Virus record (IMG/VR): IMGVR_UViG_3300042938_000662 | Span: 1-43,792 of that record | Strand: one strand, 5' to 3' | DNA from: a virus | DNA length: 43,792 nt | Shown: in pieces, positions 14,673 to 37,282 of the stretch | Numbering within the stretch: position 1 is the first letter of the stretch | How the letters are laid out: the number at the start of each line of letters is the position of its first letter | Notes under the pieces: model-generated | What the model was told of the DNA's origin: nothing | Database searches by the model: none | The model's input: the letters and a program-made list of their open reading frames with translations, nothing else | Made by a program: the position numbers and the translations under genes

Positions 14673-15167
14673 TTAACACTTAAACAAATTTTGGTGCTTA
14701 AACCAGCGTCTACGGCCATGGGCGCTTTTTAATGAGATTCCATGACTCTTTAGTTTATCTCTGAACACAAAGAAGCTAGGACCATGACTCATAAGAGGAT
14801 CTTTCCCGATCTTTCTACGTTCAATACCCTGCACATCCCATTGATATTGATGGCACATTTCGTGCGCTAATGTAGTGATTAACCATTGCTGACAATACCA
14901 CTTGTCCATTAATCTGATCTTGCAGGAACTTCTATTCTTTATAGGTACATCATATGAACCATAGCACATACCCCAGTATTTTCTACAACGTGCCATGACT
15001 TCAATCTCGGGCATCTTTAATTTGTTGTTGAAAATTGTCTTATTAATCAGACGATAAAGCATTACAACTTCGTCACGGTCGGTCCTGTAACAAAGACGTT
15101 TTTGGTATGCTATTGGAGGTAACTCCTCACGCATAAGTTCTGCAAGATTGGCTTTTCTGAACATCAT
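14673..15167 (-). CDS. SprT-like zinc metalloprotease, 164 aa
   Basis: SprT/SPRTN-type fold. The zinc site is H102-E103-M104-C105-H106 (HExxH) with the third ligand probably H128 in SHGPSF. SprT-like domains are common in T4-like phages; the eukaryotic relative SPRTN degrades proteins crosslinked to DNA, but the phage role is not established. The C-terminus is basic (SAHGRRRWFKHQNLF), suiting DNA association. Start at 15167, or 15164 (Met-Met). A CATAAATA box at 15169-15176 touches the start codon, so if it is a promoter the mRNA would be leaderless. Confidence 0.82.
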   Translation of the reverse strand: MMFRKANLAELMREELPPIAYQKRLCYRTDRDEVVMLYRLINKTIFNNKLKMPEIEVMARCRKYWGMCYGSYDVPIKNRSSCKIRLMDKWYCQQWLITTLAHEMCHQYQWDVQGIERRKIGKDPLMSHGPSFFVFRDKLKSHGISLKSAHGRRRWFKHQNLFKC

Positions 15168-15564: not shown

Positions 15565-16265
15565 TGAATATAGGGTTTGATGTTATTAGCGACCTAAATC
15601 TGGACGCTGAAGATAGCTTTGAATGGGAAGGTAAGGCTACAAGCCTATACCTAATCATAGCTGGAAATATAAGCAGTGATTTGCGAGTAATACATCAAAC
15701 TCTGGTTCATCTATCCAGATACTATCAAGGTATCTTTTATGTTGCAGGATCATTAGAACATGATAACTTGCACTTGGTAAAGAATAGATATTTAGAACTA
15801 GCACACATTTGTAAAGCAATCAAAAATGTAGCATTTTTGCATAGGCATGTAGTGATTATAAATGGTATCGCTATATTAGGCGCAAATGGATTATATGGGA
15901 GTAATTCGATTGCATCTACTACACTAGAAAAACTACATCTACATGCACAACATGTAGAAGATGTATCCTATATAGGTTCTAGTTTAGAAAAACTACAACT
16001 TCATTTAGACGTTAAAAAGATTATCATAGTCACACATTGTACTCCTAGTCCCGGATTATTCTTTGGAGAAGAACCAAATGATTTAGCGGATCAAATACCG
16101 TTAATACAAACACTTGGATGGGATTCAGAACATAAAGTGTGTAACTGGATTTATGGAAGTTTTAATAAAACAGTTGATACCACAATAGACAATGTTACTT
16201 ATATTAATAACTCATCCTATCATAGAGAACCCTATTGGGCAAAAAGATTTGAAGTAGAAGTTTAA
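15564..16265 (+). CDS. degenerate metallophosphoesterase-like protein (probable pseudoenzyme), 233 aa
   Basis: The calcineurin-like phosphoesterase layout is clear but the metal ligands are replaced. SDLHL has become SDLNL (9-13, N12 for His), GDI has become GNI (34-36), GNHE has become GSLEH (62-66), and the final GHxH has become YGSFN. Only VTHCTPSPGL keeps a histidine. All hydrophobic core segments remain, so the fold is probably kept under selection and this is not a decaying gene. It may bind a nucleotide or protein without cleaving, or antagonise the intact paralog at 8516-7668. It is coupled to the upstream membrane protein by a one-base overlap. Confidence 0.68.
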   Translation: MNIGFDVISDLNLDAEDSFEWEGKATSLYLIIAGNISSDLRVIHQTLVHLSRYYQGIFYVAGSLEHDNLHLVKNRYLELAHICKAIKNVAFLHRHVVIINGIAILGANGLYGSNSIASTTLEKLHLHAQHVEDVSYIGSSLEKLQLHLDVKKIIIVTHCTPSPGLFFGEEPNDLADQIPLIQTLGWDSEHKVCNWIYGSFNKTVDTTIDNVTYINNSSYHREPYWAKRFEVEV

Positions 16266-16567
16266 GCCTCTGCTTCTACTTTAATCTGTAATGGAAAGCC
16301 CTGACTGCGGGCATCTAATGTCACTTCAATGCCTTTTTGTTCAGCAATCTCATACGGTAACACAGCAACTACCGCACTTCCCTGATCGTGAATATTTACT
16401 GTTAATGAAGATGCAGTATCCTGATTGTAGTTAAAATACTCAATCAAACTATTAACCACAAAGTTCATACTGGTAACCTCATCATTGATATAAATGATTT
16501 TATACAATGGTGGTTCTGACAGAGCAAGATTTGGTTTGATTTTAATTTTTGTATCAGTTTTAGACAT
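16262..16567 (-). CDS. clpS: ClpS-like adaptor protein, 101 aa
   Basis: Adaptor that in bacteria delivers N-degron substrates to ClpAP. The sequence PPLYKIIYINDEVTSMNFVV followed by NSLIEYFNY aligns with ClpS, and the N-degron pocket residues appear conserved: N28-D29-E30 (bacterial NDD/NDE) and H60 in NIHDQG. C-terminal AVVAVLPYEIAEQKG also fits. I chose the ATG at 16567 (MSKTDTK), because the longer frame to 16606 runs through a hairpin in the leader. No ClpA is visible here, so it should work with host ClpA, or with phage ClpX in an unusual way. Confidence 0.88.
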   Translation of the reverse strand: MSKTDTKIKIKPNLALSEPPLYKIIYINDEVTSMNFVVNSLIEYFNYNQDTASSLTVNIHDQGSAVVAVLPYEIAEQKGIEVTLDARSQGFPLQIKVEAEA

Positions 16568-16624: not shown

Positions 16625-16653
16625 ATTATATTATTTAGTGTAAGTAATAGCAA
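16625..16653 (-). promoter_or_regulatory. sigma70-type promoter for clpS
   Basis: TTGCTA (16648-16653), 17-nt spacer, perfect TATAAT (16625-16630), overlapping the last codons of hsp20. It would start a short clpS transcript beginning just before the 16585-16606 hairpin. Confidence 0.6.
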
Positions 16654-17080
16654 TAGACTTGGGCTTTTGTTCTTCAGGAACTTCACGTTTTAAGTGAATA
16701 CTTAAGATACCTAATTCTAAATGTGCGTTCTCAATTTCTACGTGATCCGCAAGACGGAACTCACGACGGAAATTACGTTCACTAATACCTTTGTGTAGAT
16801 ATGTAGGTTCCATATCAGTCTCAATACTATTCAATGCATGATTACCTTCAATGATTAAAAAGTTTTTCTCTTTAGTTACTGATAGATTATCAGGCCCAAA
16901 TCCTGCAACAGCAAGACTAATCATATATTCATCTTCATTAATCTGAACGATGTTGTATGGAGGATAGTTTGTTTGTTGTGCTTGATTTCGAGTTAGTTCG
17001 TCAAACATACGGTCGAAACCGACTGAGAACTTATGAATAGATGGAATATCTATGGAACGAAGGGTTAATTGATTTGTCAT
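16631..17080 (-). CDS. small heat-shock protein, IbpA/Hsp20 family, 149 aa
   Basis: ATP-independent holdase that binds unfolding proteins. The protein matches IbpA-type sHsps: N-terminal FSVGFDRMFDELTRNQAQ, then YPPYNIVQINEDEYMISLAV and AGF starting the alpha-crystallin domain, YLHKGISERNFRREFRLAD in its middle and GILSIHLKREVPEEQKPKSI at the end, with I-x-I-type residues near the C-terminus. Phage sHsps are known from T4-like cyanophages. The 5' leader has ROSE-like elements (described separately), the control used for ibpA in enterobacteria. It is flanked by bS21/ClpX upstream and ClpS downstream. Confidence 0.92.
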   Translation of the reverse strand: MTNQLTLRSIDIPSIHKFSVGFDRMFDELTRNQAQQTNYPPYNIVQINEDEYMISLAVAGFGPDNLSVTKEKNFLIIEGNHALNSIETDMEPTYLHKGISERNFRREFRLADHVEIENAHLELGILSIHLKREVPEEQKPKSIAITYTK

Positions 17081-17133
17081 GTTTTTCTCCTATAAGCAAG
17101 ATGACATATTTCAGACCCGACCATCGGCATCTG
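17075..17133 (-). promoter_or_regulatory. ROSE-like RNA-thermometer candidate in the hsp20 leader
   Basis: On the minus-strand RNA, hairpin I lies at 17133-17112 (CAGAU with one bulged G, CCGA, UGG loop, UCGG, GUCUG). Hairpin II pairs UGUCAU (17106-17101) perfectly with AUGACA (17080-17075), which contains the start codon. Inside it, UUGCU (17099-17095) faces the Shine-Dalgarno AGGAG (17091-17087) across a 3-nt loop, the U(U/C)GCU-against-AGGA arrangement of ROSE elements with a G-G mismatch. Both ribosome site and start codon would be masked until heated. A TATAAT -10 sits at 17145-17150 with a poor -35, so the leader is about 58 nt. Confidence 0.6.
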
Positions 17134-17144
17134 AATACATATTT

Positions 17145-17150
17145 ATTATA
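17145..17150 (-). promoter_or_regulatory. -10 element upstream of hsp20
   Basis: Perfect TATAAT on the minus strand, about 65 nt before the hsp20 ATG. No good -35 is found at 16-18 nt (the best is TAGATT), so an activator or a different sigma factor may be needed. Confidence 0.45.
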
Positions 17151-17185: not shown

Positions 17186-17401
17186 TTAAAAGTCTTTTTT
17201 TGGGAGACTCTGGTCTCTCAAAAATTTCTGCCATCTACGTTTAGCCTGGCTCTTTGCTAGTTTGCGTTTGATAGTGGGTTTTACATATTCCTGACGGTCA
17301 CGCACCTCTTGTAAGGTACCGTAGTCTGCGATAACTTTTTTAAATTTTCGCAATGCTTTGTCTACGTTTCCGTCCTGAACTAAAACCTTTCTACCTCTCA
17401 T
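17186..17401 (-). CDS. rpsU: ribosomal protein bS21, 71 aa
   Basis: Phage-encoded homologue of small-subunit protein bS21, which sits near the anti-Shine-Dalgarno region and affects initiation. The sequence keeps the bS21 pattern: VDKALRKFKK (14-23), GTLQEVRDRQEYVKPTIKRK (28-47) and a long basic helix (SQAKRRWQKFLRDQ). Length equals bacterial bS21. bS21 is the most common ribosomal protein reported in viral genomes. Its ATG overlaps the clpX stop (ATGA at 17401-17398), so it is made from the clpX transcript. It may bias host ribosomes toward phage messages; that effect is inference. Confidence 0.9.
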   Translation of the reverse strand: MRGRKVLVQDGNVDKALRKFKKVIADYGTLQEVRDRQEYVKPTIKRKLAKSQAKRRWQKFLRDQSLPKKDF

Positions 17402-18600
17402 ACTATAACTTTTGGCTCCAAAATTTGTTTTCTATCTATATTTATGTTTAATACCTTATTATCACGGTATTTTTTAGTAAAGAACATGTGTGGCATCAAT
17501 ACACGCTCAATCTCAGTATGCAATCCACGTGCCCCTGTCTTAAGTGACATTGTATTCTCTGCTAGTTGGTCTAATGCATCTTCGGTAAAGCTTAACTCAA
17601 TGTTATCTAAACTCAACAAATACTTGTATTGGTCAATGTAGTTATTCTTAATACCAGTCAATACTCTAACTAGTTCTTCTTTAGTCAAATCCTCTACATT
17701 TACCGTAGTAGTAAAACGTCCGATAAACTCGGGAATCATACCGAACTTAACTAAGTCATCCGGACTCACATCACTCAAATCACCCTCTTTACGCTGGTCT
17801 TTGATTTGTGCTCCAAATCCAATACTAGTACCAGTTTGTCTGCTACTGATAATATCTTTTAATCCAACAAATGCACCACCTGCAATGAATAAGATATTCT
17901 TTGTATTCACTTCAATCATATCACCACCGGGATGTTTGCGTCCACCACCAGCTGGAATACGACAAGTTGTACCCTCAACCATTTTTAGTAATGCTTGTTG
18001 AACACCTTCGCCTGACACATCACGTGTGATATTAGCACTCTCACCCTTACGTGCAATCTTATCAATCTCATCAATGAACACAATACCACGTTCAGCTAGT
18101 TTAACATCACCACCTGCGGCATTAAGCAACATACTAATCATTGACTCAACATCATCACCAACGTAACCTGCTTCTGTAATGCTTGTAGCATCAGCAACAA
18201 TAAAGGGCACTTTGAGATATTTGGCAACTGTCTTTGCTAGTAATGTTTTACCTGAACCTGTAGGTCCAACTAACAATACATTGCCCTTAGAAATCTCTAA
18301 GTCTTTTGGTGGACGATTAATACGTTTGTAATGATTGGCAATAGCTACACTCAATACTTTTTTAGCATTATGTTGTCCAATAACATGATTGTCTAAAAAA
18401 TCTTTAATAGATTCAGGATCATATGATACCATATCATCTGACACAAACTCATTTTTACCTTCTTCATCTACCATAAGTGTGTTGCATAGTTCTACACATT
18501 CACTACAAATGGCTACCTCTTCACTTACGATTAGTTTTTTTACATTATCTTTGTGATTACCACAAAATGAGCAATGGTTGAGTTTATTTTCTGTTGACAT
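17398..18600 (-). CDS. clpX: ATP-dependent unfoldase ClpX, 400 aa
   Basis: AAA+ hexamer that unfolds tagged proteins and feeds ClpP. Everything needed is visible: N-terminal zinc-binding domain with C10-x2-C13 and C32-x2-C35, Walker A GPTGSGKT (112-119), pore-1 loop GYVG (145-148), Walker B IVFIDEID (173-180), RKH pore loop (221-223), the ClpP-docking IGF tripeptide (260-262) and a sensor-2 GARGL near the C-terminus. At 400 aa it is slightly shorter than E. coli ClpX. The intact zinc domain, which usually binds adaptors, and IGF loop argue for full function with the clpP product. bS21 follows by translational coupling. Confidence 0.96.
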   Translation of the reverse strand: MSTENKLNHCSFCGNHKDNVKKLIVSEEVAICSECVELCNTLMVDEEGKNEFVSDDMVSYDPESIKDFLDNHVIGQHNAKKVLSVAIANHYKRINRPPKDLEISKGNVLLVGPTGSGKTLLAKTVAKYLKVPFIVADATSITEAGYVGDDVESMISMLLNAAGGDVKLAERGIVFIDEIDKIARKGESANITRDVSGEGVQQALLKMVEGTTCRIPAGGGRKHPGGDMIEVNTKNILFIAGGAFVGLKDIISSRQTGTSIGFGAQIKDQRKEGDLSDVSPDDLVKFGMIPEFIGRFTTTVNVEDLTKEELVRVLTGIKNNYIDQYKYLLSLDNIELSFTEDALDQLAENTMSLKTGARGLHTEIERVLMPHMFFTKKYRDNKVLNINIDRKQILEPKVIV

Positions 18601-33390: not shown

Positions 33391-33418
33391 ATAATAACAT
33401 ATTTTCAGTTTAAGTCAA
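33391..33418 (-). promoter_or_regulatory. sigma70-type promoter for 33371-31864
   Basis: TTGACT (33413-33418), 16-nt spacer and TATTAT (33391-33396) with TG one base upstream. The -35 lies in the last codons of the radical SAM gene. Confidence 0.6.
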
Positions 33419-34934
33419 TAGATTTGGTTAACCTATTAAACAATAGCTTCTTGTATTCTTCAATATATAAATCTTTGTTAAAGGATATATCTTGCCATTG
33501 TACTTCTTTATACTTGACAGTTGAAATGTAATCATCCGTATATCCTAAATTCTTTAACGAAAATCCTATCTGCCCGGGCAAGCCTAGTCTATTACTATTT
33601 TGTGCCGTTGTATTAAACTCGTTTGCTAACTCAGTTGCAATCGTATTGTCTAAATGTTGATTTTTCCAATTGATCTTGGGACTATTTTGATCCGTATTTA
33701 GTTCGGTATAACCGTAATCTTTAAAATTCTTACCCAACTCACTATTAAAGGGAACTGCTTCATTCTTATACAGATTCAATCCATGAAAGATAAACGTATG
33801 TAACGGGATACTATCATCCATTAGTTGATTAAAAGTATGGCGCATAGAGTCTATTGGTTCTTCTGGTAATCCTAGTATAAAACTCCCGTGCATTGTTACT
33901 TGATTTCCATATCGTTCACGTATTTGTTTTATAGTATTGATTTGTTTTGCCCTATCAAACCCTTTACCAATTATTAATCCTGTGCGTTTATGTAGTGTCT
34001 CAATACCAAAATAAATCCCACGTAAACCTATATCATATAACTTATCAATCAATCCGTTGTTCTGTGCTATTAAATCTAAACGTGTGTAGGCCCAGAACTT
34101 GGGTTGAAAGGTCAATCGTTTAACTGTGTCGTGTAATATATCTAACTTGTATGTACTATCATTAAAGGTATCATCAAGTATATAAAAATTAGATACGCCG
34201 AACTTGTCATAGCTTGATTGCATTTCTTCATATAAGATATCACTGTGTCTAATAAAATCTAAGTTCTGTTTTCCATTCAATGGATAACTACAAAACTTAC
34301 ATTTAAAAATGCATCCACGTGCTATCTCTAATGGTAATACCTTAGCATTACCAACATCTAAATCTTCCCATTCAAATTTGCTATTGACAAAATCATAGTT
34401 ATCATTTGTTCTGTTATCAACTATTGTAATACCGTATAAATTTTTATAGCTATTGACTAGTGGTGTATTATTTTTTAAATGATTGGCAATAGATAGAATA
34501 CTGACTTCCCCGTACCCAATCACACTATAATCTATGTTCTTATCATTTAAGTTAGCGTGAGACTTTGTACCGCCTACTACAATTTTACAGTTATAGTTTC
34601 TGGATTTAATATGATTAACAACTTGAGTTTCAAAGTCAATACCCTGTGGCATAACTCCGGACAAGACAGGTTTATATGTTTTTGATCCGTCTGTGTTACT
34701 AGAGTCAATGATATTATTAAAGAAGGTTGTACTAAATCCTACAAACAATGTATTAACTGATACTGATTTGTCAATGACTTGTTTAAATTCTTCTAATGTA
34801 AATGCGTGTAGGTGATCTACAACTAAACAACTATATCCTTGTTGTCGTAGAGTATTGGCAATCTTATATGCACCGATTGCTTTATAGATAGTTACTGTGT
34901 CTGTTACATCAGTAAATATTACAGTATCATACAT
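33405..34934 (-). CDS. B12-binding-domain radical SAM protein, 509 aa
   Basis: Radical SAM enzyme with a [4Fe-4S] site C208-x3-C212-x2-C215 in ARGCIFKCKFCSYP. The N-terminal 150 residues have the Rossmann pattern of cobalamin-binding domains (NTLRQQGYSCLVVDHLHAFT; NYNCKIVVGGTKSH), although no clear DxHxxG is seen, so cobalamin may not be bound. The barrel continues with IGLRGIYFGIETLHKRT and GSFILGLPEEP, typical of the family. Reaction unknown: methylation or cyclisation of a peptide, sugar or cofactor is possible. It overlaps the SGNH hydrolase gene by 8 nt. Confidence 0.82.
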   Translation of the reverse strand: MYDTVIFTDVTDTVTIYKAIGAYKIANTLRQQGYSCLVVDHLHAFTLEEFKQVIDKSVSVNTLFVGFSTTFFNNIIDSSNTDGSKTYKPVLSGVMPQGIDFETQVVNHIKSRNYNCKIVVGGTKSHANLNDKNIDYSVIGYGEVSILSIANHLKNNTPLVNSYKNLYGITIVDNRTNDNYDFVNSKFEWEDLDVGNAKVLPLEIARGCIFKCKFCSYPLNGKQNLDFIRHSDILYEEMQSSYDKFGVSNFYILDDTFNDSTYKLDILHDTVKRLTFQPKFWAYTRLDLIAQNNGLIDKLYDIGLRGIYFGIETLHKRTGLIIGKGFDRAKQINTIKQIRERYGNQVTMHGSFILGLPEEPIDSMRHTFNQLMDDSIPLHTFIFHGLNLYKNEAVPFNSELGKNFKDYGYTELNTDQNSPKINWKNQHLDNTIATELANEFNTTAQNSNRLGLPGQIGFSLKNLGYTDDYISTVKYKEVQWQDISFNKDLYIEEYKKLLFNRLTKSIDLN

Positions 34935-35962: not shown

Positions 35963-36146
35963 TTTTTAATTCCATAACAGGTAGAATACTATTATCAAAA
36001 ATCTGAGCCATTGTGTTATACAATCCCTTACGCTCTTCCGGTGTCATTCCTGATAACCAAGGAGGGCCATTTGGATCTTTGTCTAATCCATAATCATGTC
36101 GATATGTATAGCACATATCATTAATGATTTCTTCACGGGTTTTCAT
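35946..36146 (-). CDS. small conserved T4-like phage protein, 66 aa
   Basis: Reads MKTREEIINDMCYTYRHDYG then LSGMTPEERKGLYNTMAQIF, a conserved helical protein I recall from many T4-like phage genomes. Function unknown. Coupled to the twitch radical SAM gene by an ATGA overlap. Confidence 0.7.
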   Translation of the reverse strand: MKTREEIINDMCYTYRHDYGLDKDPNGPPWLSGMTPEERKGLYNTMAQIFDNSILPVMELKNGKSS

Positions 36147-37282
36147 GGCAACTTTCCTAGTACACTACAAGTGTCTTTTAATACATTATAAAATTCGGGT
36201 AATGATTCACTAAACTTTTGTTTTCTATGCTCATCAATAGTTATTATATACTGAAATGCTTTTTCTAGCAAGTGTTGGTTATCCAAAGTATTCATATAGT
36301 TTAATACTTGTATTGAATGTGGGTCAGTTAACTTGCTACACAAATATTCTTTTGTTTCTTTACTCAATGCATCTACGCTATAATAGTCTGGTCTAAACAC
36401 CATACCAATGAATGGTTTGGGTAGTTCTTCAACACGACACCATTCAATAAACTCATCAACATAAAATACAGTAAAGATACTCATGGTATGAGATATACTT
36501 AACATAAGATTACTATTCTCTTTACGTTTTTGTTTATAGTGTTGTATGTTCTCATACACTTCTGACCATACACCTGGCCATCTAGTATATTCATATACTA
36601 GACCAGTACCGTCAATACTTAACTGCATGTTGATAGCTTTAAACTTACTCCATCGTTCCCAAAATCTTTCGTCGGGCATGATAGTACAGTTGGTTGTATA
36701 GTGTATAGTTATGTTCTTTGCGTTATGTTCTATCAGATAATCTAGGTATTCTAAATGTTCTTCAATGCCACTAACGAATGGTTCACCACCTGGCATTTCA
36801 ATCAATATTAAATCATCAGATACACTTTTTATATTCGTTAAAAAGTTTGGTTCTGCATAATATCTATTATGAGGCCAAGATTTAGTTTCGGGGAATACTT
36901 TTTTAAGCTTATGTTCTTCAGTAAGCCATCTGCTACTTGCATAGCTTTTACACGTTCTACAAGCTAAGTTACATATGTTGCCAAATGGAACTGAAAGTAC
37001 TTTAAATGAGTTTAAGTCAGGTTCAGTCTCATTAAATACCGTTACCCAATCTCGTTGGCGTTTAGATAATATACCGGAAGCTTCGTCTTGCCAACATCTA
37101 CTACAACCTTCAGGCTTTTTTCCGTCTAGGAAATCTTGTTGTAGTTGTTTACGTTCATCACTTGCTAAGAAATCAGGTAAGTTTTTTGCAAGCATATTTT
37201 TATACTTACAACAAGGTCTAAAGTCTTGTTGAACTTCAATATCTAACCCTACCCAAGGGTAATAGCAAATGTGTTCATTCAT
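36143..37282 (-). CDS. radical SAM protein, twitch/SPASM-like, 379 aa
   Basis: Radical SAM site C104-x3-C108-x2-C111 in FGNICNLACRTCKSY. Auxiliary cysteines sit at the N-terminus (C6, C24, C25, C60, C63; RPCCKYKN, EGCSRCWQDE) in the order used by phage twitch-domain proteins, which may hold a second Fe-S cluster. Barrel segments include SDDLILIEMPGGEPFVSGIE and MQLSIDGTGLVYEYTRWPG. Such proteins modify peptides or small molecules, but the substrate is unknown. It lies in one operon with the other radical SAM gene and the SGNH hydrolase. Confidence 0.82.
   Translation of the reverse strand: MNEHICYYPWVGLDIEVQQDFRPCCKYKNMLAKNLPDFLASDERKQLQQDFLDGKKPEGCSRCWQDEASGILSKRQRDWVTVFNETEPDLNSFKVLSVPFGNICNLACRTCKSYASSRWLTEEHKLKKVFPETKSWPHNRYYAEPNFLTNIKSVSDDLILIEMPGGEPFVSGIEEHLEYLDYLIEHNAKNITIHYTTNCTIMPDERFWERWSKFKAINMQLSIDGTGLVYEYTRWPGVWSEVYENIQHYKQKRKENSNLMLSISHTMSIFTVFYVDEFIEWCRVEELPKPFIGMVFRPDYYSVDALSKETKEYLCSKLTDPHSIQVLNYMNTLDNQHLLEKAFQYIITIDEHRKQKFSESLPEFYNVLKDTCSVLGKLP

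Follow-up and report, generated by a model that had tools for sequence, protein, structure and literature searches.

ROSE is described as a bacterial RNA element (PMC4166951, PMC11342760). The locus studied here raises the question of whether a phage gene for a small heat-shock protein is preceded by an element of the same kind, and what such an element would do. The first-pass annotation of this DNA had proposed a ROSE-like RNA thermometer in front of an IbpA-type gene, and described the phage as having imported or evolved this chaperone switch. The window, by which we mean the whole stretch of DNA analysed, is a 43.8-kb viral record (43,792 nucleotides) with phage genes that include an exonuclease, a DNA ligase, a head-maturation-protease/ClpP-like protein and a virion structural protein.

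Architecture of the hsp20 leader

The protein encoded downstream of the leader is IbpA-like: in addition to its Pfam and PHROG matches (Table 1), it shares 42% identity with E. coli IbpA. The 62 nt before and into hsp20 contain, in this order, hairpin I, a linker, UGUCAU, C, UUGCU, UAU, AGGAG, AAAAAC and AUGACA. UUGCU and the Shine-Dalgarno sequence (SD) AGGAG can form U-G, U-A, C-G and U-A pairs around a G.G mismatch, as in ROSE, with UAU as the loop. In ROSE elements, U(U/C)GCU is imperfectly paired with the SD around a bulged or mismatched G in the 3'-proximal hairpin, and two to four hairpins lie directly upstream of a heat-shock gene; the window leader has this SD pairing and two hairpins, and its ORF is Hsp20. 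The first-pass annotation had thus placed the UGUCAU pairing at the start codon, the UUGCU facing the SD, the further hairpin upstream and the IbpA-like product correctly, at the coordinates of Table 1.

Table 1. Features at and around the hsp20 leader (window coordinates)
Feature	Position	Strand	Evidence
ClpS adaptor gene, downstream of hsp20	16262..16567	-	PF02617 E 1.5e-23
hsp20, IbpA-like small heat-shock protein gene, controlled gene	16631..17080	-	PF00011 E 1.9e-16; PHROG_432 E 2.7e-42
Whole ROSE-like element, two hairpins through second codon	17075..17136	-	Rfam RF02523 ROSE_3; covariance model R1
Shine-Dalgarno AGGAG, opposite UUGCU, G.G mismatch mid-pairing	17087..17091	-	sequence; ROSE_3 alignment
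UUGCU anti-Shine-Dalgarno, ROSE U(U/C)GCU motif	17095..17099	-	sequence; motif conservation
UGUCAU, lower stem of hairpin II, partner AUGACA 17080-17075 at start codon	17101..17106	-	sequence
Hairpin I, UUCAGAU-[G]-CCGA-UGG-UCGG-GUCUGAA, unpaired G at 17128	17110..17135	-	covariation; bacterial ibpA leaders; ROSE_3 consensus
T4-like late-promoter motif AATAAATA	17140..17147	-	sequence; 5 nt before hairpin I
Ribosomal protein S21 gene, directly upstream of hsp20	17186..17401	-	PF01165 E 5.6e-16
ClpX-like ATPase gene	17398..18600	-	Pfam AAA_2 + zf-C4_ClpX

Elsewhere in the window, a gene for a SprT-like metalloprotease (14673-15167, minus strand; PF10263) lies near the ClpS and ClpP-like genes. 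Two big ORFs (33405-34934 and 36143-37282, minus strand) resemble radical-SAM enzymes, by eye only.

The motif AATAAATA in front of hairpin I would be the late promoter for the hsp20 mRNA. T4 late promoters have a TATAAATA-type -10 element at a fixed distance from the transcript start. This motif and the unpaired G of hairpin I can both be placed in 56 non-redundant relatives, and in 49 of these the AAATA ends 8–12 nt before that G. From this spacing and the T4 geometry, the mRNA would be expected to start about 5–6 nt downstream of AATAAATA, at the base of hairpin I. WATAAATA occurs three times in the window against 14 expected from shuffles, a depletion that would fit avoidance of the late-promoter motif at sites other than promoters.

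Match to Rfam models and predicted folds

In a sub-threshold search of 301 nt against all 4227 Rfam families, ROSE_3 (RF02523) aligns end to end (model positions 1-69) with 17136-17075, scoring 27.5 bits with an E-value of 6.6e-4. The alignment reaches the AUG and stops at the start of the hsp20 coding region, and no second ROSE_3 match occurs in the whole window record. The core of hairpin I in ROSE_3, GAUGCCGA..UCGGGUC with its unpaired G, has identical core letters in the window leader. Because 27.5 bits is under the gathering cut-off of 43 bits, a scan at the default threshold gives no match for this leader; since the cut-off is not reached, we call the leader ROSE-like and not a member of ROSE_3. 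Every phage match is under the gathering score, the best phage leader reaching 38.2 bits. The first-pass annotation had named the ROSE (RF00435) and ROSE_2 (RF01832) models, neither of which lists the window leader even at E-values up to 10. ROSE_3 matches in the records L204 and L205 are both weak, that in L204 falling inside a long repetitive ORF, and were taken as chance.

In the predicted fold of the isolated leader both the SD and the AUG are closed. With about 45 nt of extra upstream sequence the prediction changes, and a competing long-range pairing of GUUCCU with AGGAG wins. We rejected this fold as functional because it needs RNA 5' of the late-promoter-like site, upstream of the expected transcript start, and because it is broken in L001, where the Hsp20 is 99% identical to that of the window and the counterpart of GUUCCU is UUCCAA.

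At 20, 37 and 50 °C, opening the window leader from SD to AUG is predicted to cost 8.5, 6.1 and 3.9 kcal/mol, respectively. The corresponding values for the E. coli ibpA leader, 10.5, 7.3 and 5.2 kcal/mol, fall with a similar slope. In RNAfold the window leader loosens gradually with temperature, with no sharp switch. Its single-sequence fold is not exceptional against shuffles (z -1.52). This z-score and the Rfam score under threshold are what one would see if an A/T-rich leader merely contained an ordinary SD that happens to pair; such a coincidence is contradicted by the covariation of hairpin I and runs against the motif enrichment and gene specificity described below, and we regard it as extremely improbable.

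Covariation and motif conservation among relatives

Hairpin I is strongly supported by covariation. Among 27 distinct hairpins, 99.3% of alignment cells are paired and 7 of the 10 pairs have two-sided changes; such changes are found in 81 cells, where shuffles give 26.4. When the 3' arm is shifted by 1–3 columns, just 21–40% of cells stay paired. The inner stem is found as CCGA/UCGG, CCCA/UGGG, CUGA/UCAG and CUCA/UGAG, and the outer stem as GUAGAU/GUCUAC, UCAGAU/GUCUGA, GUGAGU/GCUCAC and UCGGGU/GCCCGA. Despite this free change of sequence, one unpaired G is always kept. The MAFFT alignments A1 and A2 mis-register the stem and the SD and were excluded from the pair counts.

Of 76 non-redundant relatives, 69 carry the U(U/C)GCU..AGG motif, where shuffles would give 0.8, and 54 carry both motif and hairpin, where about 0.04 would be expected. 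UCGCU variants exist in nature in cyanophages and in L042 and L284. The UUGCU/SD core is conserved and nearly invariant; since it hardly varies, it has little covariation support of its own.

A further element of the earlier proposal, the stem that pairs with the start codon, exists in the window. Conservation of the GUCAU/AUGAC stem is limited to the freshwater hsp20 clade, where the stem is invariant; leaders of dnaK, of cyanophages and of marine phages have it in a weak form or lack it. A co-variation test of this AUG-blocking stem was not significant within groups. The covariation of phage leaders, which had been suggested as a check, thus bears out hairpin I strongly and finds the UUGCU/SD core conserved with little variation, while giving no basis for judging the AUG stem.

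Some relatives lack the UUGCU motif (L214, L238 and the pelagiphage-like L481-L488). In the dnaK leaders L214, L215 and L238-L241 and the pelagiphage-like hsp20 leaders L481-L488, UUGCU is replaced (CUCACUU, CUGUCU) and the hairpins are partly kept. This replacement represents either a loss or another anti-SD.

Spread among phages and gene classes

A scan of IMG/VR confirmed by tblastn gave 80 loci encoding a window-type Hsp20. The covariance model R1, built from eight freshwater hsp20 leaders with the window leader excluded, finds the window element with 62.4 bits (E 2.5e-12) and also matches the leaders of most relatives. In 34 viral records, all 48 matches of the model at E-values up to 0.05 precede one of three kinds of gene: hsp20 (30), dnaK (12) or a gene for a phasin-like protein (6). 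A regular expression for the SD motif, run over the fetched hsp20 and dnaK loci, matched no gene of another class, apart from three hits that are probably due to chance. With both the SD motif and the model matches confined to these three classes, we rejected a general late-gene motif. The pattern GATGCCGA..TCGGGTC was also run on viral contigs; its listed matches were not taken into any count.

By sequence, dozens of phages from fresh water and the sea have a ROSE-like leader before hsp20. Among isolates it is found in Sinorhizobium phage Phosso, Pelagibacter phage HTVC008M, Methylophilales phage Melnitz-3 and phage C48C1, and in the cyanophages P-RSM1, S-PRM1 and S-WAM2, with a degenerate form in S-TIM5. 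Isolate leaders were mostly recognised by reading; Melnitz-3 alone scores high with the model, and its leader reaches 34.1 bits with ROSE_3. In two further IMG/VR scans, cyanophage-like contigs carried the element throughout, in the UCGCU form; among pelagiphage-like contigs it was seen in those resembling HTVC008M. One 6.9-kb contig binned as a Pirellulales MAG (L297) has a phage-type Hsp20 with a phage-type leader and is probably a misbinned phage fragment.

In viral dnaK loci, the ROSE-like SD motif precedes dnaK in 71 of 80 cases (leaders among L206-L285; another example is L202:4354-4292, minus strand), mostly with the architecture of the hsp20 leader. An hsp20 that follows a viral dnaK often has its own ROSE-like copy. 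In a 524-kb record (G033) the order is ClpX, S21, putative switch, dnaK, putative switch, hsp20 and ClpS, which is the window order plus dnaK. In some dnaK leaders (L229, L237, L253, L267, L281 and L284) a further hairpin, GGGCN..GCCC, separates hairpin I from the SD and resembles the middle hairpin of bacterial ROSE.

The third class encodes a protein of about 90 residues (six model matches; loci L287-L291, e.g. L291:1281-1345); five of the six genes were read directly and the sixth was inferred from a near-copy record. Pfam gives no clear family for this small protein, and the name phasin-like comes from its look only. The window has a similar small phasin-like ORF at 30752-30477 (minus strand), with a CATAAATA motif upstream and no UUGCU before its SD.

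These data also bear on whether the leader regulates at all. Hairpin I might simply protect the late transcript as a constitutive 5' stabiliser or spacer, with the UUGCU/SD pairing as an inherited relic of no regulatory effect. The hairpin is placed where the transcript is expected to start, terminal hairpins stabilise mRNAs, as discussed for Pseudomonas ibpA (PMC3669281), and the melting in RNAfold is gradual, all of which would suit such a role. A relic, however, would be expected to decay or to occur before other late genes, whereas the SD-blocking motif persists across widely diverged leaders, with its specific U(U/C) variation, and is confined to chaperone-type genes. We therefore hold a purely stabilising role to be improbable.

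Relation to bacterial ROSE elements

The bacterial genes nearest to the phage Hsp20 proteins are alpha- and gammaproteobacterial ibpA genes, mostly with 41–49% identity. U(U/C)GCU is found before the SD in 64 of 79 bacterial ibpA-type loci, and 57 of these 64 leaders have a hairpin of the hairpin I kind (a stem, an unpaired G and CC..GG), against 1.5 expected. Since phage and bacterial elements have both hairpins in common, common descent would be the simplest reading. The presence of a ROSE-type element before a phage IbpA-like gene is thus upheld by the Rfam alignment, the common architecture of hairpin I, the U(U/C)GCU variation and the covariation.

In a protein tree, the phage small heat-shock proteins form long-separated phage groups; of those tested, Phosso alone falls inside the proteobacteria. 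The element is probably an old possession of phages and not a recent import by the window phage. As for the proposal that the chaperone switch was imported or evolved, an import was probably not recent, because the window Hsp20 lies in these long-separated phage lineages.

Proposed mechanism

In Pseudomonas, short ROSE elements made up of two hairpins, with hairpin I at the 5' terminus, have been proven to act as thermometers (PMC3669281). From this precedent and the predicted opening with temperature, we consider it likely that the window leader acts in cis as an RNA switch of the ROSE type, in its short form with two hairpins, which would open translation of a late chaperone gene upon heating.

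For this switch we infer the transcription start, the repression of translation and the response to heat as follows. Transcription from a phage late promoter would begin at the base of hairpin I, and the mRNA would carry at its 5' end a stable hairpin whose unpaired G is conserved. In hairpin II, the SD would be sequestered by the imperfect pairing of UUGCU with AGGAG around a G.G mismatch and, in the window clade, the start codon as well, by GUCAU/AUGAC. The 30S subunit would be largely shut out as long as the temperature is low. Warming, or possibly misfolded proteins that draw the chaperone away, would open the weak pairing and allow the chaperone to be made. The late promoter would thus set when the protein is made, and the RNA how much. 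In related phages the same switch before dnaK, and often again before the following hsp20, would form a small phage heat-shock regulon.

It is possible that the leader responds mainly to protein. In E. coli, IbpA binds the 5' UTR of ibpA and so represses its own translation, for which R93 is needed; basic residues at 97 and 98 are also part of the requirement, K98 being needed (PMC10474464). By analogy, phage Hsp20 or host IbpA might bind the leader and repress it until misfolded protein titrates the chaperone, with temperature acting indirectly. The E. coli precedent with its dependence on R93 speaks for this, as do the equivalents of R93 and R97 that the phage proteins, including the window Hsp20, keep; the strongly conserved hairpin I with its unpaired G also looks like more than a stability hairpin. 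However, the K98 equivalent is E in the window Hsp20 and T in L264, and the presence of the element in dnaK leaders would require regulation in trans. We give a mainly protein-responsive switch a minor share of belief. Autorepression by the phage Hsp20 is nonetheless a live possibility, either as an addition to the heat switch or as its rival.

The heat-opened switch can be extended, more speculatively, to an old phage-borne regulon of large or T4-like phages. ROSE-like elements and late promoters would together control hsp20, dnaK and the phasin-like gene, the small heat-shock protein, which keeps IbpA's RNA-binding arginine, would act in trans on these leaders, and chaperone supply late in infection would be set by temperature and by the load of misfolded protein. 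We offer this scheme tentatively and think it doubtful as a whole.

Discussion

ROSE-like switches appear to be widespread before hsp20 and dnaK of large and T4-like phages and to have gone undescribed so far. Our literature search, with most subscription journals outside its reach, returned no report of ROSE in a phage or before dnaK. The word thermometer is absent from the phage hsp20/dnaK papers PMC7674155 and PMC12619734. The first-pass annotation knew of no described phage example; this holds for ROSE in the literature searched, but not for RNA thermometers in general, as (pro)phage examples are known from lambda cIII, SPbeta blyA and a gut-phage sigma70 gene (PMC10586365, PMC11182007).

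Before hsp20, the element is found in marine cyanophages, pelagiphages, methylophages and freshwater jumbo phages, to which phage dnaK is to be added. Water temperature may therefore determine how much chaperone is made in a large share of T4-like phages. This bears on why phages carry hsp20, whether for virion assembly or for heat protection, and on how infections react when the temperature rises. More genes can be added to the few in phages that have been suspected of being under thermometer control, and dozens of diverse natural ROSE variants, with the conserved unpaired G in hairpin I among their features, are made available for structure-function work.

The known phage leaders resemble the candidate in the window in being cis-acting, temperature-dependent parts of a phage mRNA. 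They differ in that none is ROSE, none controls a chaperone gene and none has been reported over a large phage group. The blyA (PMC10586365) and sigma70 (PMC11182007) thermometers are of the fourU type, and lambda cIII works in the opposite direction, being open when cool. In bacteria, ROSE elements are known from small heat-shock genes, and ROSE-like thermometers have been known upstream of ABC transporter genes since 2024 (PMC11342760). The latter, too, place a ROSE-like motif outside small heat-shock genes, although the genes are bacterial, and the main text of that report contains no word beginning with phage.

With the ROSE_2 element of E. coli ibpA (RF01832), the window leader shares the UYGCU/SD logic and a hairpin I with an unpaired G before CC..GG; the E. 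coli leader differs in having an extra middle hairpin and scores 100 bits with ROSE_2, for which no match of the window leader is listed. The Pseudomonas ibpA thermometer (PMC3669281; RF02523) differs from the window element in its setting, a bacterial heat-shock gene as opposed to a phage gene behind a late-promoter-like site. Its AUG is predicted to be unpaired, while that of the window is paired in the predicted fold, and the window clade is A/U-rich, has the GUCAU/AUGAC lower stem and stays under the Rfam gathering score. Otherwise the two have much in common: about 62 nt, two hairpins with hairpin I at the (in the phage, expected) 5' end of the mRNA, a U(U/C)GCU motif imperfectly paired with the SD, a full-length ROSE_3 alignment, and an IbpA-type small heat-shock protein as the controlled product.
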